DNA of 64,000 nucleotides from Zeaxanthinibacter enoshimensis (GTDB taxonomy: Bacteria > Bacteroidota > Bacteroidia > Flavobacteriales > Flavobacteriaceae): the NCBI RefSeq assembly GCF_004362865.1, contig NZ_SNYI01000001.1, positions 1,240,001-1,304,000 on the forward strand. Direction: 5' to 3'. The first letter of the stretch is position 1. The number at the start of each line of letters is the position of its first letter. The position numbers were made by a program, and so were the translations under genes. The notes beneath the pieces are model-generated. The model had not been told where the DNA came from. It did no database searches and saw only the letters and a program-made list of their open reading frames with translations. This document shows, in pieces, positions 19,730 to 30,265 of this stretch.

Positions 19730-21022
19730 TTAACTCTTTCCAATATAAACTTGTTCCATTTTTTTCCGGATCTCGTTAAGACACAGGTTGCCCAAGCTAC
19801 CTTCATGCGTATGCCGGGCTGTTTTAACCGGGATAAATTCGCCTTTTTCTATAGCTTCGCCCATTTGTTTATAGGCATCCCGGAATGGCAGCCCGTTCAG
19901 GACCTTTTCATTCAGGGTGTCCACGCTAAAGAGGTAATCATAGCGGGAGTCATCTAAAATCTTCGCATTGACCTGGATCGATTTAAGGCTAAAGTGCATC
20001 ATCTCCAGGCAAGATTTCATCTCCTGAATAGCAGGGAGCAGTATTTCTTTTAACAACTGCATATCCCGGTGATAACCCGAGGGAAGGTTGGTTGTCAACA
20101 ATGCGATCTGGTTGGGTACTGACTGCAGCTTATTACACTTGGCCCTTATTAATTCAAAAACATCGGGATTTTTCTTGTGGGGCATAATACTGCTTCCAGT
20201 GGTGAGTTCATCAGGGAAGGAGATGAAATTAAAATTCTGACTGAGGTACAGACAGATATCCATGGCCAGCCTGGAAACAGTGCTAGACAGCATCGCCATT
20301 GCTTCTGAACTCGCCCGTTCCACCTTTCCTCTTCCCATTTGCGCAGCCACAACATTGTATTTAAGTGTGGAGAACCCAAGCTCCTGGGTCGTAAAACTCC
20401 GGTCTATAGGGAAAGAACTTCCATAGCCGGCCGCACTGCCCAGGGGGTTCTGGTCGGCTACCCGGTAGGCGGCCTGCAGGAATTGCATATCGTCTACCAG
20501 GCATTCTGCATAGGCAGAAAACCATAGTCCGAATGATGAGGGCATGGCTACCTGGAGGTGGGTATAGCCAGGAAGCATGGTATCCTTGTGTTGTTCTGCC
20601 AGGGACAGTAATAAATCAAAGAGATTATAACTGTCTTCCATGATCTTTGCCAGTTCATCCTTCAGAAACAATTGCATGGCCACAAGAACCTGGTCATTCC
20701 TGGAACGAGCGGTGTGGATCTTCTTCCCTGTATCTCCCAAAGCTTCTGTCAGCATAAATTCGATTTTGGAATGCATGTCTTCAAACTCATCTTCAATATG
20801 GAATTCACCCGAAATTATTATCTTATCAATAACTTCCAGTTCCTTTAACAAGGCGTCCACTTCCCCTGTTTTTAACATCCCGATCTTCCCGAGCATTTTG
20901 GCGTGGGCCTTTGAAGCGACAACATCGTAGTGGGCCAGTTGTTCGTCCAGCGAGCGATCATTGCCTACGGTGAACAGGTCTATTTTCTTATCGGTACTGA
21001 TGCCTTTATCCCAAAGTTTCAT
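19730..21022 (-). CDS. argH: Argininosuccinate lyase
   Basis: 430-residue cytoplasmic enzyme splitting argininosuccinate into arginine and fumarate, the last step of arginine synthesis. It has the N-terminal SLDEQLAHYDVVASKAHA, the HTARSRNDQV box, GYTHLQVAMP, and the fumarase-superfamily signature TGSSIMPHKKNPD with the catalytic serine loop. Length is normal. It is the last gene of the arginine operon, 23 bases downstream of argE. Confidence 0.97.
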   Translation of the reverse strand: MKLWDKGISTDKKIDLFTVGNDRSLDEQLAHYDVVASKAHAKMLGKIGMLKTGEVDALLKELEVIDKIIISGEFHIEDEFEDMHSKIEFMLTEALGDTGKKIHTARSRNDQVLVAMQLFLKDELAKIMEDSYNLFDLLLSLAEQHKDTMLPGYTHLQVAMPSSFGLWFSAYAECLVDDMQFLQAAYRVADQNPLGSAAGYGSSFPIDRSFTTQELGFSTLKYNVVAAQMGRGKVERASSEAMAMLSSTVSRLAMDICLYLSQNFNFISFPDELTTGSSIMPHKKNPDVFELIRAKCNKLQSVPNQIALLTTNLPSGYHRDMQLLKEILLPAIQEMKSCLEMMHFSLKSIQVNAKILDDSRYDYLFSVDTLNEKVLNGLPFRDAYKQMGEAIEKGEFIPVKTARHTHEGSLGNLCLNEIRKKMEQVYIGKS

Positions 21023-21045: not shown

Positions 21046-22122
21046 TTAATCCCCGAGCAGGAAGCCCTTGAGTATTTTAATATATAAATCTATTCCTTCT
21101 TCGATCTCGGAAACATAGATAAACTCGTTCGCAGAGTGCGACCGGGTGCTATCCCCAGGTCCTAATTTTAAGGACTGGCAGGATAGTGCCGCCTGGTCTG
21201 ACAAGGTAGGTGAGCCATAGGTGCTTCTTCCTTGTTCCAGCCCGGAGAGAACCAGGGGGTGGTCTTTTGCTATGGAGGAAGAATTCAATCGGAGTGACCG
21301 GGCTTTCATCTGGCAGGGTGCTTCTTCACTAAGTATGCCGGCAATCTCCTTGTTGCTGTAACAATCGTTTACCCGCACATCAACTACCAGGTGAACCTTG
21401 GCCGGCACCACATTGTGCTGGCTCCCGGCATTCATTTGGGTTACCGTCATCTTTACGGGACCTAAGACCGGCGATACTCTTTCAAATTCATAATCCCTGA
21501 ACCACTTCAGGGTATCAATACAATTGTAGATAGCATTGTCGTCATTGGGGTGCGCCGCATGGGATGGAGTCCCCTTTACTTCCGCATCAAAAACAACAAG
21601 CCCCTTCTCCGCTATAGCCAACTGCATCAGGGTAGGTTCCCCAACGATTGCAACATCTATGGGGGGTAGTATTTTCAGCATACTGTTGAGTCCGTCAGGG
21701 CCTGAACTCTCTTCTTCAGCCGAAGCGACCACGATAATATTATGACTCATTTCTTCTTGGCTGTAGAAATAGGCAAAGGTGGCCAGTAACGAGACCAGTG
21801 CCCCACCCGCATCATTACTGCCAAGGCCATACAATTTTCCATCAATGATCTCAGGTTTAAAGGGATCTCTCGTATACGCCTCGTTGGGATGGACCGTATC
21901 ATGGTGGGAATTAAGCAACAGGGTAGGCTTGGATTCGTCAAAGTGTTTGTTAAAAGCAAAAACATTGTTCTTTACCCGTTTTGCAGGGATATCCCTAAGA
22001 CGGAACCAGCGTTCGATAGCGTCGGCGGTACCGTCTTCTTCCGAAGAAAATGATTGAATAGCGATCAATTCCTTTAATAGCTCAAGGGCGGAATCCTGTA
22101 AAGTAGTCTGCAATTCTTTCAT
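21046..22122 (-). CDS. argE: M20-family N-acyl-ornithine deacylase (ArgE)
   Basis: 358-residue M20 metallopeptidase-type hydrolase that removes the acyl group from N-acylornithine or, with the carbamoyltransferase route used here, from N-acylcitrulline. Zinc ligands are in LNSHHDTVHP, the LGSNDAGG aspartate, and SAEEESSG; a dimerisation lid follows the GTPSHAAHP motif. The start at 22122 is chosen because the ATG overlaps the argB stop as ATGA; a longer frame reaches into argB. In an acylornithine carbamoyltransferase pathway the natural substrate is acylcitrulline, so the enzyme acts after ArgF'. Confidence 0.93.
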   Translation of the reverse strand: MKELQTTLQDSALELLKELIAIQSFSSEEDGTADAIERWFRLRDIPAKRVKNNVFAFNKHFDESKPTLLLNSHHDTVHPNEAYTRDPFKPEIIDGKLYGLGSNDAGGALVSLLATFAYFYSQEEMSHNIIVVASAEEESSGPDGLNSMLKILPPIDVAIVGEPTLMQLAIAEKGLVVFDAEVKGTPSHAAHPNDDNAIYNCIDTLKWFRDYEFERVSPVLGPVKMTVTQMNAGSQHNVVPAKVHLVVDVRVNDCYSNKEIAGILSEEAPCQMKARSLRLNSSSIAKDHPLVLSGLEQGRSTYGSPTLSDQAALSCQSLKLGPGDSTRSHSANEFIYVSEIEEGIDLYIKILKGFLLGD

Positions 22123-22898
22123 AGTTGTATGGTCGTATAATTTGAAGCGTTCTTCTGCAGCATTTCCTTGTCTCCTATACATACCCGGGACACATCTTTA
22201 TACAAAGCATGAAAACAATTGTCCAGTTTCGGGAGCATGCCGTCGGCAATCACGCCTTCGGCCTTAAGCTTAAGGTAAGCAGCTTCATCAATATCCCGGA
22301 TGACCGAGTTCTCATCATCGACATTCCTGAGCACTCCCTTCTTCTCAAAGCAGTAGTACAGGGTTACCTGGTAGCGGGAACTAAGTCCTATTGCAAGTTC
22401 TGAAGCTATGGTATCGGCATTCGTATTCAGTAACTGTCCTTTCCCGTCATGGGTCAGGGCACAGAATACAGGGACCAGGTCGGCCTTTAATAACTTGTCA
22501 ATAGCCCGGTGATTAACTTCTACTACATCTCCGGCCCAGCCATAATCTATATCCTTTACAGGCCTTTTTACGGAAAGGATACTATTAGCATCAGCCCCGC
22601 TCATACCTATGGCGTTGCATTGCAGCGCCTGCAGGTGAGCTACTACGTTTTTGTTGAGCAGACCGGCATATACCATTACCACGACATCCAGGCTGTCATT
22701 GTCAGTTATCCTCCGTCCCTGGTGCAAGCGGGGTGTTAGTCCCAATTTTGATTCGATCTGTGAGGCACGCTTCCCTCCACCGTGAACCAGCACTTTAGGA
22801 TTTGGCAGGGCAGCAAACAAAGAAAGGAATTCTGACAGCTCTTCCGGGGATTCAATGATATTGCCGCCTATTTTTACAATGGAGAGTTGAGGTTTCAT
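22119..22898 (-). CDS. argB: N-acetylglutamate kinase
   Basis: 259-residue amino-acid kinase. It has the N-terminal GGNIIE phosphate loop, VHGGGKRASQIESKLG, VVMVYAGLLNKNVVAHL, and the C-terminal ADGMLPKLDNCFHAL with the conserved lysine. It phosphorylates N-acylglutamate in the second step of arginine synthesis. Its ATG overlaps the argF' stop (ATGA) and its stop overlaps the argE start, so all three are translationally coupled. Confidence 0.96.
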   Translation of the reverse strand: MKPQLSIVKIGGNIIESPEELSEFLSLFAALPNPKVLVHGGGKRASQIESKLGLTPRLHQGRRITDNDSLDVVVMVYAGLLNKNVVAHLQALQCNAIGMSGADANSILSVKRPVKDIDYGWAGDVVEVNHRAIDKLLKADLVPVFCALTHDGKGQLLNTNADTIASELAIGLSSRYQVTLYYCFEKKGVLRNVDDENSVIRDIDEAAYLKLKAEGVIADGMLPKLDNCFHALYKDVSRVCIGDKEMLQKNASNYTTIQL

Positions 22899-23833
22899 AA
22901 CTGTTGCAATAATTTTTTCAGGACCAGCTGGGCGGAGTAGGTTCGGTTATTGGCCTGTGCCAGTACCAGGGACTGCGGACTATTGAGAACGGCATCTTCT
23001 ACCACGACATTCCTGCGGACAGGGAGGCAATGCATAAAACGTGCTTTTCCCAACTTTTCCATGGTGACCATCCAGTTCTTATCCTGGTTGATCACTTGAC
23101 CATAATCTGTAAAGCTGCTCCAATTCTTCGTATATACAAAATCGGCGCCTTCCATCGCTTTTGCCTGGTCGTGTTCTACGGTAATTCCTTGCCTTATTTC
23201 GGGATTCAGATCATATCCCTCCGGATTGGTAATGACGAATTCGACATCCTGTTTCTTCATCATTTCTACAAACGAATTAGCCACGGCATGTGGGAGCGGC
23301 CGGGGGTGAGGAGCCCATGACAGTACTATTTTAGGCCTTTTCCTGGTGTTGTGTTCTGCTATGGTAATGGCATCTGCCAGTGCCTGCAGCGGGTGACCCA
23401 CCGAACTCTCCAGGTTCACTACCGGAATACCTGCATACCTGGCAAAAGCGGTCAAGGTCTGTTCAGCCTCGTCTGTTTTCCTGTCTTTAAGTCCGGCAAA
23501 AGCACGGATACCTACAATGTCACAATACTGGGCAATAACCTGTGCAGCTTCCCGTACATGCTCTGCTTTACCCTGGTCCATAATAGTTCCGTCCTCGTAT
23601 TCCAGTAACCAGCCTTCGCTCCCAAAATTCATAACCATGACCTCCATGCCGAGATGAAGAGCGGCTTTCTGGGTACTGAGACGGGTACGTAAGCTGTTAT
23701 TGAAGAAGAGAAGGCAAAGTACTTTTCCTCTGCCAAGTGCATGGTCCCGGTAAGGATCCTTCTTTAATTCAACAGCTTCGGAAACCCAGGAGGGCAGGGA
23801 TTGTATCTCTTGTAAGGATAGAAAATGTTTCAT
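22895..23833 (-). CDS. argF': N-acylornithine (acetyl- or succinyl-) carbamoyltransferase
   Basis: 312 residues. It transfers the carbamoyl group to an N-acylated ornithine instead of free ornithine. Marks of this branch are the carbamoyl-phosphate loop NSLRTRLST (46-54) in place of STRT, the WAPHPRPLPHAVANSF segment, and HCLPVRRN near the C-terminus in place of HCLPAHR. The residue that separates acetyl- from succinyl-specific enzymes, just before Glu-His at 91-92, is Ala90 here, whereas the Bacteroides fragilis succinyl enzyme has Pro and the Xanthomonas acetyl enzyme Glu. Which acyl group is used is therefore open. Confidence 0.93.
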   Translation of the reverse strand: MKHFLSLQEIQSLPSWVSEAVELKKDPYRDHALGRGKVLCLLFFNNSLRTRLSTQKAALHLGMEVMVMNFGSEGWLLEYEDGTIMDQGKAEHVREAAQVIAQYCDIVGIRAFAGLKDRKTDEAEQTLTAFARYAGIPVVNLESSVGHPLQALADAITIAEHNTRKRPKIVLSWAPHPRPLPHAVANSFVEMMKKQDVEFVITNPEGYDLNPEIRQGITVEHDQAKAMEGADFVYTKNWSSFTDYGQVINQDKNWMVTMEKLGKARFMHCLPVRRNVVVEDAVLNSPQSLVLAQANNRTYSAQLVLKKLLQQL

Positions 23834-23859: not shown

Positions 23860-25005
23860 TTAACTGGCCTTTTCAATATAGTTCAATTCGGTTTTCAAAG
23901 CTTTGAAAAAGCGATCCAAGGCAGCTTTCTCGATATTCAGGGCGGGAAGGATACGCAGTACCTTCTTGTTGCTTGCACCCCCGGTGAAGATGTGCCGGCG
24001 CAGGATGAGGTTTTTCCTTAGTTCGCCAACTTCAAAATCAAATTCGAGCCCCAGCATCAGGCCTTTGCCCTTTACTGCTTTCAGGTAGGGAAGTCCCGCT
24101 GCCTTCTGCCGGAAGTATTGCTCCATTTCCACTGTCCGGGGAAGCAGTTTTTCTTCTTCTATTACCTCAAGGACGGCGAGGGTAGCCGCGCATGCCAGGT
24201 GATTGCCTCCAAAAGTGGTTCCCAGCATTCCGTGCACAGCTTTAATTTCCGGTGCAATAAGGATACCTCCTACCGGGAAACCATTTCCCATTCCTTTAGC
24301 TATACTGATGATATCCGGCCTGATCCCGAAATGTTGAAAACTGAAGAACTTTCCACTTCTGCCGAAACCGGATTGCACCTCGTCTGCAATCAGCATTACC
24401 CCGGCTTCTTTGGATAGTACGGCAATCTGCTTATAGAACTCAACAGATGGTTCGTCAAGGCCTCCTACCCCTTGTATCGCTTCAAGGATGACCGCACAGA
24501 CATCATCTCCGGCCAGGGCCGTTTTGAAGGCCTTCAGATCGTCAAAAGGTACGAAACTTACCTGCTGCTGGGTATTGATCGGGGCATGGATCTTACTGTT
24601 ATCCGTGGCCGCCACAGCGGCCGACGTTCTGCCGTGAAAACTGTTTTTAAAAGCGATCACCCGCGCTTTGCCGGTGACGAAGGATGCCAGTTTCAGGGCG
24701 TTTTCGTTGGCTTCGGCACCTGAATTACACATAAAGAGCCGGTAATCTTCACAGCCTGACAGGCGCCCGAGTTTTTCAGCGAGTTTCTGCTGTAAAGGAT
24801 TTACGATCGAATTACTGTAAAAACCGATCTTATCCAGCTGTTCCCTGATCCGTTTGACATAGTGAGGATGGGAATGCCCGATAGAAATTACGGCATGACC
24901 ACCGTATAGATCGAGGTATTCTTTCCCATCGGCATCGATTACGGTACTACCCAGGGCCTTTACAGGGGTAACGTCGTATAAAGGGTATACATCAAATAAT
25001 TCCAT
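23860..25005 (-). CDS. argD: Acetylornithine aminotransferase family
   Basis: 381-residue class III PLP aminotransferase making N-acylornithine from N-acylglutamate semialdehyde with glutamate as donor. Motifs: YLDLYGGHAVISIGHSHP, CNSGAEANENALKLA, FHGRTSAAVAATDN, ADEVQSGFGRSG and SIAKGMGNGFPVGG with PLP lysine K237. It starts one base after the proC stop, so the two are coupled. It may act on the succinyl analogue, depending on the acyl group used by this operon. Confidence 0.95.
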   Translation of the reverse strand: MELFDVYPLYDVTPVKALGSTVIDADGKEYLDLYGGHAVISIGHSHPHYVKRIREQLDKIGFYSNSIVNPLQQKLAEKLGRLSGCEDYRLFMCNSGAEANENALKLASFVTGKARVIAFKNSFHGRTSAAVAATDNSKIHAPINTQQQVSFVPFDDLKAFKTALAGDDVCAVILEAIQGVGGLDEPSVEFYKQIAVLSKEAGVMLIADEVQSGFGRSGKFFSFQHFGIRPDIISIAKGMGNGFPVGGILIAPEIKAVHGMLGTTFGGNHLACAATLAVLEVIEEEKLLPRTVEMEQYFRQKAAGLPYLKAVKGKGLMLGLEFDFEVGELRKNLILRRHIFTGGASNKKVLRILPALNIEKAALDRFFKALKTELNYIEKAS

Positions 25006-25006
25006 C

Positions 25007-25801
25007 TTATCCTTTTTTGATCTGGTTGATCTTATCGTGAGAAGCTATGATACCCCGGATCAGGGAGGAGCTAAGTCCCTGGTGTTCCATTTCGTTGAGT
25101 CCCTCGATGGTACATCCCATGGGAGTAGTAACTTTATCTATTTCCTGTTCGGGGTGGTTCCCGGAATTAATAAGCAGGCTTGCGGCCCCGTGACAGGTAT
25201 GCATCGCCAGTTCCTGTGCTTCTTTGGCATCAAATCCAAGTTGAATGGCACCCTGGGTGGTGGCCCGGATGAGCCGCATCCAGAAGGCTATCCCGCTGGC
25301 ACAGATGACCGTGGCGGCCTGCATCCGGGTCTCTGGGATTTCCATAGAATGCCCCATACGGTTAAATATGGCCTTGGCGAGATCAATTCTTTTTTTACCT
25401 GCTTCGTTACTACACAGGCAAGTCATGGAATCACCAACGGATATCGCTGTATTAGGCATACTTCGGATGATGTATTGAGCTTTTCCCACGATTGCTTCCA
25501 TAGAAGCTATACTGAACCCGGTTATGGTACTGATAAGGACATGTTTCTCTGTGAGAATATCCTTTATCTCCTCCAGGATACCGGCAAAATGCCTCGGCTG
25601 AACGGCAAATATGAGGATGTCAGAATTGTCTACGGCCTCACGGTTATCAGAGGTGATAGTGACATTCCCGTATTTCTCAAAAACACGGATCTCTTCCAGG
25701 TTCCTTTTCGTCAGGTACATGCTGGTAGCCCCGTTGCTGTGGAGTATACCTTTGGCTATTGATATCCCCAGGTTCCCTGTCCCTATAATCGCTATTTTCA
25801 T
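25007..25801 (-). CDS. proC: Pyrroline-5-carboxylate reductase
   Basis: 264-residue NAD(P)H-dependent reductase. The N-terminal Rossmann motif is IAIIGTGNLGISIAKGI; FAVQPRH and RSMPNTAISVGDSMT mark the active site; the C-terminal signature runs from TTPMGCTIEGLNEMEHQGL. It makes proline from pyrroline-5-carboxylate. Its place inside the arginine operon, between argC and argD, is notable: it puts proline synthesis under arginine control, or it may handle the pyrroline formed from glutamate semialdehyde or ornithine in this operon. Confidence 0.93.
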   Translation of the reverse strand: MKIAIIGTGNLGISIAKGILHSNGATSMYLTKRNLEEIRVFEKYGNVTITSDNREAVDNSDILIFAVQPRHFAGILEEIKDILTEKHVLISTITGFSIASMEAIVGKAQYIIRSMPNTAISVGDSMTCLCSNEAGKKRIDLAKAIFNRMGHSMEIPETRMQAATVICASGIAFWMRLIRATTQGAIQLGFDAKEAQELAMHTCHGAASLLINSGNHPEQEIDKVTTPMGCTIEGLNEMEHQGLSSSLIRGIIASHDKINQIKKG

Positions 25802-25837: not shown

Positions 25838-26812
25838 CTAGAATACTCCTGATTTTAATTGTAAACCGGATCCTTCCTCCACCCCGAACATCAGGTTCAT
25901 ATTCTGAACGGCCTGGCCCGAGGCTCCTTTTAACAAATTATCGATCGCCGAGCTAACCAGTAGCAGGTCATCATGTTTGTGCAGGTGTAAGTGGCATTGG
26001 TTGGTATTGACGACCTGCTTGAGATCCAGGGGTTGGTCTGAAACATGGGTAAAGCTGGCATCTTGATAGAATTCCCGGTAGAGAGCTTCCGCTGATTCCA
26101 GGCTATCCGTATACCGGGTATAGGCTGTGGCAAAAATGCCCCTGGTGAAATTCCCACGCATTGGCAGGAAGTGGATAGGGGGGATTTCATCCTGCAGGCT
26201 TTGCAGGCTTTCACTTATTTCTCCCATATGCTGATGCGTAAAGGGCTTATACCACGAGATATTATTATTTCTCCAGCTGAAATGGGTTGTGGCAGAAGTG
26301 GCAACTCCGGCTCCCGTACTTCCTGTCATGGCATTGATATGAACATCATTCCCCAGCTTTTGCTTACTAGCCAGGGGGAGTAAGGCTAACTGTATGGCTG
26401 TGGCAAAGCAACCGGGATTAGCAATATGACCGGCGTTCCGTATCTTCTCCCTGTTCAGTTCAGGTAGACCGTAAACAAACCGCCTGTCGTCGAGTGAAGC
26501 ATCGCCTGCCAACCTGAAATCGTTACTTAGGTCGATCACCTTGGTTTGTTCCGAAAAGCTGTTAGCCTTGAGAAAAGCGGTGGAGTTGCCGTGTCCAAGG
26601 CACAGGAAAACCACATCCACACCGGAATCCACTGTACCAGTGAATCGCATATCCGTAACCCCGAGAAGGTCCGGGTGGGTATCTGAAATTTTAGTTCCGG
26701 CCCGGGTGGTACTGTAAACGAAAGAGATCTCTGCGTCCGGATGCATTAAAAGGATCCTGATAAGTTCCCCGCCGGTATAGCCCGACCCTCCGATTATTCC
26801 TGCTCTGATCAT
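25838..26812 (-). CDS. argC: N-acetyl-gamma-glutamyl-phosphate reductase
   Basis: 324-residue NADPH-dependent reductase forming N-acylglutamate semialdehyde. It shows the NADP motif IIGGSGYTGGELIRIL, the DLSNDFRL loop and the catalytic cysteine C135 in ANPGCFATAIQL, plus GSTGAGVATSATTHF. Start ATG overlaps the argG stop by four bases. Usual length for the short ArgC type. Confidence 0.96.
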   Translation of the reverse strand: MIRAGIIGGSGYTGGELIRILLMHPDAEISFVYSTTRAGTKISDTHPDLLGVTDMRFTGTVDSGVDVVFLCLGHGNSTAFLKANSFSEQTKVIDLSNDFRLAGDASLDDRRFVYGLPELNREKIRNAGHIANPGCFATAIQLALLPLASKQKLGNDVHINAMTGSTGAGVATSATTHFSWRNNNISWYKPFTHQHMGEISESLQSLQDEIPPIHFLPMRGNFTRGIFATAYTRYTDSLESAEALYREFYQDASFTHVSDQPLDLKQVVNTNQCHLHLHKHDDLLLVSSAIDNLLKGASGQAVQNMNLMFGVEEGSGLQLKSGVF

Positions 26813-27996
26813 GAGTTCTGGTTTACGTGGGTCGCGATCTTACCCTGGTTAGATAATATCTTGATAAAGCCTTTGGCATCTTCAGCGGTCCATGCTTTGT
26901 TCATTTCGCCATACTGGCCAAATGAGGCATTCATCAGGTCGTGTTTTGAATTAATCCCGTTGAGTTCAAAACGATAGGGATGCAGGCTGACGGATACGGT
27001 TCCCGATACATTCCTTTGAGTATCCTGCAGGAAGGCCTCAATATTTCGCATTACCTCGTCCAGGTAGTTCCCTTCGTGGAGCAGCATGCCATAGAAATTA
27101 GCCAGTTGTTCTTTCTGGAATTGCTGCCATTTACTCAGGGTGTGTTTCTCTAACAAGTGATGTGCTTTGATAATGATCAGGGAAGCAGCAGCCTCGAACC
27201 CGACCCGGCCTTTGATACCTATAATGGTATCTCCCACATGGATGTCCCTGCCAATTGCAAATGCGGAAGCAATTTTTTCCAGCTGAATGATATTGTTAAC
27301 GGGACTGTCTTCCTTACCGTCTATCGCAGCCAGTTCTCCTTTGGTAAAAGTTAGGTTTACTTCCCGGGTACCCGATGCTGTAAGCTGGCTGGGATAGGCT
27401 TCCGGCGGGAGGGGTTTCTCTGAAGTAAGGGTTTCTGCTCCTCCTACAGAAGTACCCCAGAGTCCTTTGTTGACAGAGTACTTGGATTTTTCCCAGGAGG
27501 CATCCACCCCATGAGCTTTAAGATAGCTGATCTCTTCCTCCCTGGATAATCTCATATCGCGGATGGGAGTAATGATCCGGATGTCAGGTGCCATGATCTG
27601 GAAGATCATATCAAATCTGACCTGGTCATTCCCTGCGCCGGTGCTGCCATGGGCAATAGCGTCTGCCCCTACAGATTTTGCATAATTGGCTATTTCTACC
27701 GCTTGTACAATTCGCTCTGCACTAACAGATAAGGGATAGGTGTTGTTCCTGAGAACATTCCCGAATACCAGGTATTTTACCACCTTCTCATAGAAGGACT
27801 CCAGGGCATCTATGCATTTATAATTGGTCGCTCCAAGCTCCAGGGCTTTGTTCCTGATTTCTTCGATCTCTTCCTTTTCAAATCCACCGGTATTTACGGT
27901 CACGGCATGTACCTCGTATCCCTGGTCTTCTGATAAATATTTAGCGCAGTAGGAAGTATCCAGTCCTCCGCTGTATGCCAGTACTAATTTTTTCAT
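26809..27996 (-). CDS. argG: Argininosuccinate synthase
   Basis: 395-residue ATP-pyrophosphatase-type enzyme joining citrulline and aspartate. N-terminal P-loop-like LAYSGGLDTSYCAKYL, then IAHGSTGAGNDQVRFD and KYSVNKGLWGTSVGGAE. It is cytoplasmic and acts just before ArgH. The start overlaps the stop of the acetyltransferase gene as ATGA. That ArgG comes second and ArgH last shows the whole route is made from one transcript. Confidence 0.96.
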   Translation of the reverse strand: MKKLVLAYSGGLDTSYCAKYLSEDQGYEVHAVTVNTGGFEKEEIEEIRNKALELGATNYKCIDALESFYEKVVKYLVFGNVLRNNTYPLSVSAERIVQAVEIANYAKSVGADAIAHGSTGAGNDQVRFDMIFQIMAPDIRIITPIRDMRLSREEEISYLKAHGVDASWEKSKYSVNKGLWGTSVGGAETLTSEKPLPPEAYPSQLTASGTREVNLTFTKGELAAIDGKEDSPVNNIIQLEKIASAFAIGRDIHVGDTIIGIKGRVGFEAAASLIIIKAHHLLEKHTLSKWQQFQKEQLANFYGMLLHEGNYLDEVMRNIEAFLQDTQRNVSGTVSVSLHPYRFELNGINSKHDLMNASFGQYGEMNKAWTAEDAKGFIKILSNQGKIATHVNQNS

Positions 27997-28683: not shown

Positions 28684-28709
28684 AAAGAAGAAACGCACCC
28701 TTACGGGCG
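28684..28709 (-). promoter_or_regulatory. Possible attenuator hairpin with U-rich tract
   Basis: Read on the minus strand, CGCCC-GTAA-GGGTG can form a five-pair stem (one G-U) closed by a GNRA-type tetraloop, followed by the T-rich TTTCTTCTTT. The left arm includes the last Arg codon and the stop of the leader frame, so a stalled ribosome would block it. The stem is weak and the tract is interrupted; a folding calculation is needed. Confidence 0.35.
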
Positions 28710-28784
28710 GCGACGTGTGGGCACAAAACGAGTGACCGGGAAAGAGCTCCGGGTAATCAAAAAGTTATGTGCTTTAGTATTCAT
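28701..28784 (-). CDS. Arginine-rich leader peptide of the arginine operon (27 aa)
   Basis: A short frame from ATG 28784 to TAA 28701: 27 residues, ending FVPTRRRP. Five of 27 codons are arginine (CGG, CGT, CGT-CGC-CGC), three of them in tandem just before the stop. It begins six bases after a -7 element and ends 87 bases before the first structural gene. Position, size and a run of codons for the end-product amino acid are what ribosome-mediated attenuation leaders look like. No Shine-Dalgarno sequence is seen; with the promoter so close the transcript may be nearly leaderless. It could be a chance frame, but the tandem Arg codons make that less likely. Confidence 0.5.
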   Translation of the reverse strand: MNTKAHNFLITRSSFPVTRFVPTRRRP

Positions 28785-28790
28785 TGTAAT

Positions 28791-28798
28791 CAAAAGTA
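28791..28798 (-). promoter_or_regulatory. -7 element of the arginine operon promoter
   Basis: On the minus strand TACTTTTG matches TAnnTTTG, six bases upstream of the leader-peptide ATG. No TTG lies at the usual -33 distance (the nearest, at 28831-28833, is 32 bases away). Confidence 0.45.
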
Positions 28799-28850: not shown

Positions 28851-30188
28851 TTATCCCCGCCTCTTTCTGAATAATTCATAGCCCATCATTCCTAAAACTG
28901 CTAAATACTCAATAGAGATTGCAAGCATACTTTCCTTGTAGCCTGGGTTGGCATAAGCAGTATAACTGAGAATGGCAACCACGGACCACACGATAGGAAA
29001 CCGGTAAGGCGTGAAAAGACTCAGCAAAAGGGGTACGATCAGGTACCAGGGATGTACTACGGGTGCCAGCAGGTAATAGATGACCATGACCCACATCATG
29101 GAATTGATGAGATGGGGTAATGAAGAATCTCTTTTATAAAAAGTGTAGAACAATACCAGGGCCACAGTTGTGTAGGGAATAAGGTTTCCGTACCACCGTA
29201 TAAGTTCCCAGGGCTTTGCATCAAACTGAATCGCGATCTGTTTGATGCCATTGTAAATCCCGGCATTGAATTCAAAATTTGAAAACCAGAGGTGAAGGGT
29301 GGCCAGGAAGTTGTGCAAAAATTCGGGGGTGTAGAAATACAGGAAACTCAGGATCACAGCCAGGCCGGTGCCCACATAGAACAAGAGGCTTTTCCGTAAT
29401 CCCAGGGCTGTGAAAAGAAGCGGTAAGAGCATCAAAGGAATCAGCTTGACTACAACAGAGGCGCCGTATGCCAAAGAGGCAAGCAGGGTTCTTTTACTGA
29501 TCAGCAGGTAGAGGGCTGCTACCATGAAAAAGAGCATTACTCCCTCAAAATGCAGGTTCCCAGTTAACTCCAGGATCACCAAGGGGTTCAGGAAATACCA
29601 GAATATCAGGTGTGCTGACCTGTTCATTTTTTTGAGTAACAATCGTCCTACGTAGATGATCCCCAGGTCTGCAGTGATAATAATGAATCTTAAGGTCAGT
29701 ATACCCCCTAATATACTTTTGCCACCTAGCAGTGCTGCCAGGGTAAAGAAGAACTGGTTCAGCGGCGGGTAATTACTGAAGTTCCCGGCACTGAGGTCTC
29801 CCATACCGGTATGTAGTGCAGCGAAGTACGGATCAGTTCCAAGTTCGGAGATAAGATCGTTCGGTTTGCTCAGGTAGGGGTTGATCCCATCCAGGACGAG
29901 GTGCCCATCCCACAGGAACCTATAGAAATCCTGTGACAGGTTAGGCATTGCGAAAAGCAGCACAAGTCGGAACAGGATACCACTTACCAGTAAGAACCTG
30001 TAGTTCCATTTTTCGAACTGTATGAGTTTAAAACAAAAGAAGAAGAGTGCCCCGTAAAGACAGAAAAAGCGGATGGTATCTTCCCGTGCCAGCGCGTATC
30101 CTGTCACCCAGTAAAACAGCAACGTGAACAAAACCATAAGCAGGGGGAACCTGTGGAGATTCCAGTAAGAGACAGCCCTGCCAAGCAT
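28851..30188 (-). CDS. GT-C family mannosyltransferase-like membrane protein
   Basis: 445 residues from ATG 30188 (a GTG ten codons upstream is possible). About 11-12 hydrophobic helices. The first extracytoplasmic loop carries LSQDFYRFLWDGHLVLDGINPY, with the acidic pattern of polyprenyl-phosphate-dependent GT-C enzymes, and another loop has SNYPPLNQFFFT. Such proteins move a sugar from a lipid-phosphate donor outside the membrane. A Dpm1-like GT2 gene that could make the donor lies just upstream in the same direction. Acceptor unknown. Confidence 0.8.
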   Translation of the reverse strand: MLGRAVSYWNLHRFPLLMVLFTLLFYWVTGYALAREDTIRFFCLYGALFFFCFKLIQFEKWNYRFLLVSGILFRLVLLFAMPNLSQDFYRFLWDGHLVLDGINPYLSKPNDLISELGTDPYFAALHTGMGDLSAGNFSNYPPLNQFFFTLAALLGGKSILGGILTLRFIIITADLGIIYVGRLLLKKMNRSAHLIFWYFLNPLVILELTGNLHFEGVMLFFMVAALYLLISKRTLLASLAYGASVVVKLIPLMLLPLLFTALGLRKSLLFYVGTGLAVILSFLYFYTPEFLHNFLATLHLWFSNFEFNAGIYNGIKQIAIQFDAKPWELIRWYGNLIPYTTVALVLFYTFYKRDSSLPHLINSMMWVMVIYYLLAPVVHPWYLIVPLLLSLFTPYRFPIVWSVVAILSYTAYANPGYKESMLAISIEYLAVLGMMGYELFRKRRG

Positions 30189-30265
30189 AATGAAACGGTT
30201 AGTTGGATTAGTAGGCACCGAAAATATTAAAAATATAATTATTTTCTGAAGCGGAAAGGGGGAAG

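Follow-up and report, generated by a model that had tools for sequence, protein, structure and literature searches.

A conserved arginine-rich leader and a covarying hairpin upstream of the arginine operon in Zeaxanthinibacter enoshimensis and other Flavobacteriaceae

The window, the whole 64,000-nucleotide stretch of Zeaxanthinibacter enoshimensis DNA analysed here, carries on its minus strand nine genes for arginine synthesis in the order GNAT, argG, argC, proC, argD, carbamoyltransferase, argB, argE/dapE-like and argH (Table 1). A first-pass annotation had placed an arginine operon here, and family matches and gene order agree. The individual gene names rest on best family match plus gene order, because several NCBIfam matches fall just or well below curated cut-offs. 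The argG motif YSGGLDT lies within 1300 bases of the GNAT start in 116 of the 120 regions with enough sequence. Judged from its place in the operon, the GNAT protein may be an N-acetylglutamate synthase. Its cysteines C146, C149, C163 and C165 are invariant in 19 aligned relatives, most of which also have a basic tail. A same-strand neighbour upstream (28851-30218, minus strand), which resembles a membrane glycosyltransferase and has weak GT87 and MptB matches, stops 52 bases before the -7 element of the leader.

Table 1. Features of the arginine leader and its operon, in window coordinates
Feature	Position	Strand	Basis
-7 promoter element TACTTTTG	28798-28791	minus	read from sequence; TAnnTTTG kept in relatives
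Leader peptide frame MNTKAHNFLITRSSFPVTRFVPTRRRP and stop; 27 codons, five Arg, ends RRRP before the stop	28784-28701	minus	sequence and relatives
Tandem Arg codons CGT-CGC-CGC, presumed stall site	28715-28707	minus	sequence; Arg positions in 159 leaders
Hairpin P1, CGCCC-GUAA-GGGUG, stop codon UAA in loop	28709-28696	minus	fold of relatives; inner-pair counts
U-rich, G-poor linker CGTTTCTTCTTT between P1 and P2	28695-28684	minus	sequence; column make-up
Hairpin P2, lower stem GGAAAU/AUUUCC, bulged A, GG/CC, pentaloop UGAGU	28683-28662	minus	core in relatives; covariation
First gene, GNAT-family acetyltransferase	28613-27993	minus	profile match; four conserved Cys
argG, argininosuccinate synthase	26809-27996	minus	family match
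argC	25838-26812	minus	family match
proC	25007-25801	minus	family match
argD-type aminotransferase	23860-25005	minus	TIGR00707, below its cut-off
Acetylornithine-type carbamoyltransferase	22895-23833	minus	287.7 bits against a cut-off of 288
argB	22119-22898	minus	family match
argE/dapE-like deacylase, start uncertain	21046-22182	minus	below cut-offs
argH	19730-21022	minus	family match

Ahead of the GNAT gene, the first-pass annotation had described a -7 element, a six-base gap, an ATG, a 27-codon frame with five Arg codons, a U-rich tract and 87 bases from the leader stop to the GNAT ATG, and all of these are present on the minus strand. Its statement that the tandem Arg codons lie two codons before the stop needs correction: the frame closes with CGT-CGC-CGC-CCG-TAA, so that a single Pro codon separates them from the stop. 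The stem with a GUAA loop also exists and is short; rather than following the frame, it shares the frame's last bases, and its loop contains the stop codon. A further hairpin, P2, lies outside the annotated interval and is better supported than P1.

Relatives were located through the GNAT gene, which is present in 22 of 40 relatives and in 266 of the 397 genomes of the family. A further GNAT scan contributed 80 loci, all labelled Flavobacteriaceae or unclassified relatives, together with 80 short stretches, and the pooled set comprises 207 upstream regions, of which 191 are distinct by their last 150 bases.

The promoter element conforms to TAnnTTTG, which we take to be the Bacteroidota -7 promoter type. 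Of 81 relatives with a single leader, 54 have this motif 5-9 nt 5' of the leader's ATG, as against 1 of 81 control windows. Dinucleotide shuffles of the leader yield an ATG frame with five or more Arg codons including RRR in 5 of 5000 cases. When the most Arg-rich frame near P1 is chosen in each of 178 regions, 128 of these frames have an in-frame ATG no more than 45 codons away, 47 have GTG or TTG and 3 have neither; a few rows of this count show a non-leader frame. A large group of regions thus starts the leader with GTG or TTG instead of ATG.

Codon positions were analysed in the 159 of 178 leaders that end R(x)P or RRT, a selection that by itself makes Arg at position -2 universal (100%); Arg occupies position -3 in 149 of them and position -4 in 103, almost always as CGT or CGC. 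In the last 12 leader positions of the 178 regions, CGC (385) and CGT (293) far outnumber AGG (31), CGA (10), AGA (6) and CGG (3), so that CGC/CGU make up 93% of leader Arg codons, with CGC within P1 also fixed or favoured by stem pairing besides any codon effect. Arginine usage in the GNAT and argG genes of L050-L129 is AGA 41%, CGT 17%, CGA 15%, AGG 15%, CGC 6% and CGG 6%, and in 50 long open reading frames of the window AGG 29%, CGG 24%, CGT 14%, AGA 14%, CGC 11% and CGA 8%. Because tRNA-Arg(ICG) alone reads both CGU and CGC, the leader seems to be tuned to one isoacceptor.

Substitutions at codon positions 1, 2 and 3 number 241, 155 and 308 in the leader against 304, 296 and 284 in the untranslated spacer of the same 55 aligned pairs, which share sequences and are not independent. 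Nonsynonymous codon differences (355) exceed synonymous ones (179) in these pairs, so the peptide is poorly kept outside its Arg end. The refuting outcome named at first pass, loss of the frame or of its Arg codons among close relatives, did not occur: both are kept, and third positions change in excess. By these comparisons the Arg-rich leader is a real, conserved frame whose translation is predicted.

P1 combines the final Arg codon and the Pro codon next to it with the stop codon, which falls in the loop, and with the noncoding bases that follow. Its inner pairs GCCC/GGGT recur in 149 of 178 regions, and its stem is 4-5 bp long in most of the 178; nine of the 191 regions have GCAC/GTGC and may represent one clade. 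The loops (GUAA in 121 of 178 regions, GUAG in 7, UUAA in 6, CUAGU in 4, and others) vary, and docking of P1 through a GNRA loop was rejected for this reason. A simple terminator rule is satisfied at P1 in 76 of 178 regions, compared with 4-14 of 178 for shuffles of the P1 stretch, and fails at P1 in the other 102; 2 regions satisfy it at P2, and 2 satisfy it behind P2. At the window locus alone there is no excess, with one terminator-like site found against 0.6 expected, and the fold of the window leader is not unusually stable (z -0.55; 53 of 200 shuffles equally good). The structure of the leader RNA is thus made visible by comparison, not by the fold of the window leader. Among 81 aligned leaders, the pairs of P1 and P2 are the only ones with a probability above 0.1, and all of them reach at least 0.94. 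No conserved mutually exclusive antiterminator hairpin was found in this alignment, in keeping with the first-pass remark that there is no clear alternative antiterminator.

Along the RNA, P2 reads GGAAAU-A-GG-UGAGU-CC-AUUUCC. Its first base lies 17 nt past the leader stop, a distance at which a ribosome of usual footprint standing at that stop would not reach it. The P2 core GGTGNG(T/C)C occurs in 178 of the 191 distinct upstream regions, a share that is overstated because the regions come from the best-scoring GNAT matches and weaker relatives are under-sampled. In 170 of the 178 the core lies 57-78 nt 5' of the GNAT start. A wider hairpin rule is satisfied by 180 of the 191 regions; the corresponding counts are 15 of 189 for windows taken further upstream and 15-28 of 191 for five shuffle sets. 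Of the 13 core-less regions, L115, L116, L175, L177, L189 and L020 from a sister family fit this wider rule, whereas L077, L187, L201 and the distant L019, L021, L022 and L023 do not.

Covariation was measured in an alignment (A5) of 82 matches, 62 of them distinct, fitted to a P2 model (R1) that was built from 14 hand-picked hairpins and matched 82 of the 91 loci searched. In this alignment 98.0% of paired cells are paired, 55 cells carry double changes against 14.0 in shuffles, and the covariation score is 0.422 against 0.210, with none of 500 shuffles as high on either of the latter two measures. On two of the five covariation measures the alignment is not clearly separated from shuffles: 6 pairs carry a double change (14 of 500 shuffles as high), and there are 12 pair types (249 of 500). 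Counted without the model, stems average 6.1 pairs across 155 distinct arm pairs and 3.4 pairs once the partners are shuffled.

The pentaloop follows UGHGU in 178 regions, where H is mostly A (79%), less often U (16%) or C (5%) and never G; invariance inside the core is partly a product of selection, since the counts use a fixed core pattern. The closing pairs of the P2 variants in L175 and L189 differ by compensatory changes. An unchanging loop on a freely covarying stem suggests that P2 has a partner. The Rfam 15 covariance models, riboswitches and T-boxes included, give no match for this element in the window at the gathering cut-off, and five loci give none at E up to 1.

Three other explanations of P2 were rejected. 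A Shine-Dalgarno mimic, based on the complementarity of AGGUG to the 16S tail, is contradicted by variants that keep the hairpin and lose the match (GAUGNGUUC in L175 and L189, GUAGUGUAC in L116). A start codon in the loop is contradicted by downstream frames that, judged by eye, are not conserved. A general module of amino-acid leaders is contradicted by the window genome, which has a single P2 match at E up to 1. A weak second P2 match occurs in G021 (E 0.025) and another in G004 (E 0.69).

P2 is common in the family yet not universal, since the genus g143 and other loci have the GNAT gene without it. Among 19 further primary GNAT loci (L254-L272), six have a core-like P2 and 13 have none, and these 13 include eight from g143 and one, L272, of another family. 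In all eight genomes examined of this large genus, P2 is absent within 200 nt of the GNAT gene; it is likewise absent at L255, L267, L268 and L270, which belong to different genera within the family. Another short frame or a conserved stretch is present upstream in seven of the eight g143 loci. In L256-L262 of this genus, a conserved stretch with CACGGACAAAC and the hairpin-like TACTTCTCCCGAAGTA is found about 330-230 nt upstream of the GNAT match; at some loci it falls within a short frame, for example MNKTSLHITSLSRTNRPTTSPEVRML. Loci L020 and L275 of sister family f2 have an Arg-rich frame, a P1-like stem and, in the place of P2, a hairpin with the loop UACGU. P2 outside the family was rejected: four order-level matches among 296 genomes (E 0.0016-0.011) are within chance, and the one in G561 lies away from its GNAT gene. 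The model used (R2) misses variants, as G191 is negative in this 296-genome search yet carries GAUGUGUUC.

Other leaders occur in these genomes. Outside the single-leader group, 62 of 110 regions have an Arg-rich ATG frame further upstream, for example MKNLKNKIRC...RRRF followed by a stop, some of the 62 being doubtful. L010, L012, L097, L113, L187 and others have a second Arg-rich frame upstream of the first, some 300 to 220 nt ahead of the GNAT start. Pairing between the first codons of the upstream leader and the U-rich stretch that follows its stop averages -12.5 kcal/mol, compared with -7.7 kcal/mol for shuffled stretches and -9.6 kcal/mol for the stretches of other species. This pairing beats the leader's own shuffles in 59 of 62 cases and other species in 51 of 62, and changes in the two partners match from species to species. 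The pairing figures come from 62 frames filtered separately, from which nine loci were first removed by hand and of which some are doubtful. Many of these genomes seem, from such comparisons, to carry two leaders in series. In the window genome, a His leader (MRNQITHHHFYTCPQAS and a stop) followed by a canonical terminator, AACCCGTTTGAGCAATCAAACGGGTTTTTTT, precedes hisG (L253; contig C2, upstream of the hisG match at 1003278-1003742, minus strand), which makes leader-peptide control plausible in this organism.

The leader frame, its CGY codons, P1, the covarying P2 and the promoter motif are all conserved among relatives, and the arrangement probably constitutes a ribosome-operated arginine switch, in which stalling at CGY codons would hold P1 open and the operon on and arginine would close P1 and turn the operon off. 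Judged by the promoter motif, transcription would start just before the leader ATG, and a ribosome would translate the 27 codons behind RNA polymerase. When charged tRNA-Arg for CGU/CGC is scarce, the ribosome would stall at the tandem CGY codons, and its footprint would keep P1 open so that the operon is expressed. When arginine is ample, the ribosome would reach the stop codon in the P1 loop and leave, whereupon P1 would close and operon expression would presumably fall. The likeliest output would be premature transcription termination at P1 and the U-rich linker, which is favoured by the shuffle control, with Rho acting on the vacated leader or mRNA decay as alternatives. Because no competing hairpin is conserved, the part of antiterminator would fall to the ribosome. 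P2, set at a constant spacing from P1, would make some contact with a partner. The attenuator proposed at first pass is partly supported, by the kept Arg leader and by tandem codons placed where a stalled ribosome would cover the stem. It missed P2, and because this better-supported hairpin lies past any P1 termination point, the element is not explained by P1 read-through alone. The switch likewise leaves P2 unexplained.

A doubtful alternative starts from P2 instead: a trans partner, namely an RNA-binding protein and possibly an operon product, or arginine itself, would read the hairpin and set expression through translation, decay or antitermination, and the leader peptide would provide a second input. 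The invariant pentaloop on a freely covarying stem with a bulged A, the compensated closing pairs, the fixed P1-P2 spacing and the single copy in the window genome all point this way, whereas the lack of an Rfam match speaks against it and P2 alone cannot account for the Arg codon bias. A tentative combination, put forward on the comparative sequence evidence, would place two sensors on one leader: at P1 the ribosome would read charged tRNA-Arg, and the P2 loop would be read by arginine or by a dedicated RNA-binding partner.

Rho could also provide the output, if it loaded on a ribosome-free, pyrimidine-rich and G-poor leader end while P2 paused the polymerase and a stalled ribosome hid the site. 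The linker and the stretch behind P2 are G-poor and most regions lack a rule-based terminator, but the P1 region is terminator-like far above shuffles and, to our knowledge, pausing requires no invariant loop. This output is unlikely, even with passages of a report on Salmonella orf34-speF that link Arg codons to Rho (PMC6386406). Control by mRNA decay is rather less probable still: depending on where the ribosome stands, P1 and P2 would either shield the operon mRNA or leave it exposed, a mechanism of the kind proposed for Salmonella speF. The same passages offer a precedent that combines tandem Arg codons with a hairpin past the stop (PMC6386406), whereas no long alternative structure is conserved in the 81 aligned leaders. 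That the frame is an accident of C-rich RNA elements, with nothing translated and only P1 and P2 of consequence, is very improbable: the last codons overlap P1 and could be fixed by pairing alone, start codons vary and much of the peptide is not conserved, but CGT and CGC exchange at Arg positions -3 and -4, third positions change in excess, the promoter sits just before the ATG and a separate Arg-rich frame occurs upstream in another clade.

If the ribosome-operated switch holds, it would explain control of the arginine pathway in a large bacterial group without detectable ArgR and would extend leader-peptide control to arginine synthesis. It would also be a case of ribosome-based control in a phylum, the Bacteroidota, that makes little use of Shine-Dalgarno sequences. 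If there are two sensors, the leader would take the place of ArgR and represent a new class of cis-regulatory RNA without the classical terminator-antiterminator pair. P2 itself would be a conserved and so far undescribed hairpin whose defined loop is open to direct testing.

ArgR and its ARG box govern arginine operons in many bacteria. The leader would share with them the control of an arginine operon, yet the ArgR C-terminal domain was found in none of 40 relatives and not in the window genome, with control genomes positive. Across the phylum 72 of 198 genomes have the domain; none belongs to the window's order, and one, marginal, to its class. Attenuators of the his, trp and leu type have a promoter-proximal short frame rich in end-product codons, and the arginine leader likewise is a short frame with end-product codons before the end product's own operon. 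It appears to lack a canonical terminator, P1 being terminator-like in 76 of 178 regions, and it differs in having no conserved antiterminator, a stop codon in a hairpin loop, the extra P2 and arginine as product, and it is not classed as a classical attenuator because no mutually exclusive antiterminator hairpin is conserved. In the Escherichia coli pyrBI attenuator, the ribosome itself blocks the downstream hairpin, there is no antiterminator hairpin, and the UTP signal acts via polymerase pausing. The arginine leader also lacks a conserved antiterminator hairpin, and its ribosome would block P1 itself, but it has tandem end-product codons in place of UTP and polymerase pausing.

In Salmonella orf34-speF, two consecutive leader Arg codons can sense arginine and act through RNA structure, Rho and decay, according to passages of the report (PMC6386406). 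Tandem Arg codons and the participation of a hairpin downstream of the stop are common to both, whereas orf34-speF, as described in those passages, controls a gammaproteobacterial ornithine decarboxylase with another peptide, other structures and another gene (PMC6386406). Identity with the orf34-speF leader (DUF2618, core HIRRT before ornithine decarboxylase, as given in those passages) was rejected, since peptide and gene differ here. Passages of other reports mention a carA leader peptide in Pseudomonas aeruginosa (PMC4997734) and short frames in long 5' UTRs in Bacteroides (PMC7366714). Leader-peptide attenuation has been proposed before amino-acid operons in Flavobacterium psychrophilum, of the same family, in passages that name no arginine operon and no such hairpin (PMC9723704). 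A full-text literature search, with supplements and most subscription papers outside its scope, found no arginine leader of this form in Bacteroidota. The leader would thus follow the known principle of leader-peptide control, in an arginine form unreported in Bacteroidota as far as searched and joined to a hairpin, P2, not previously described.
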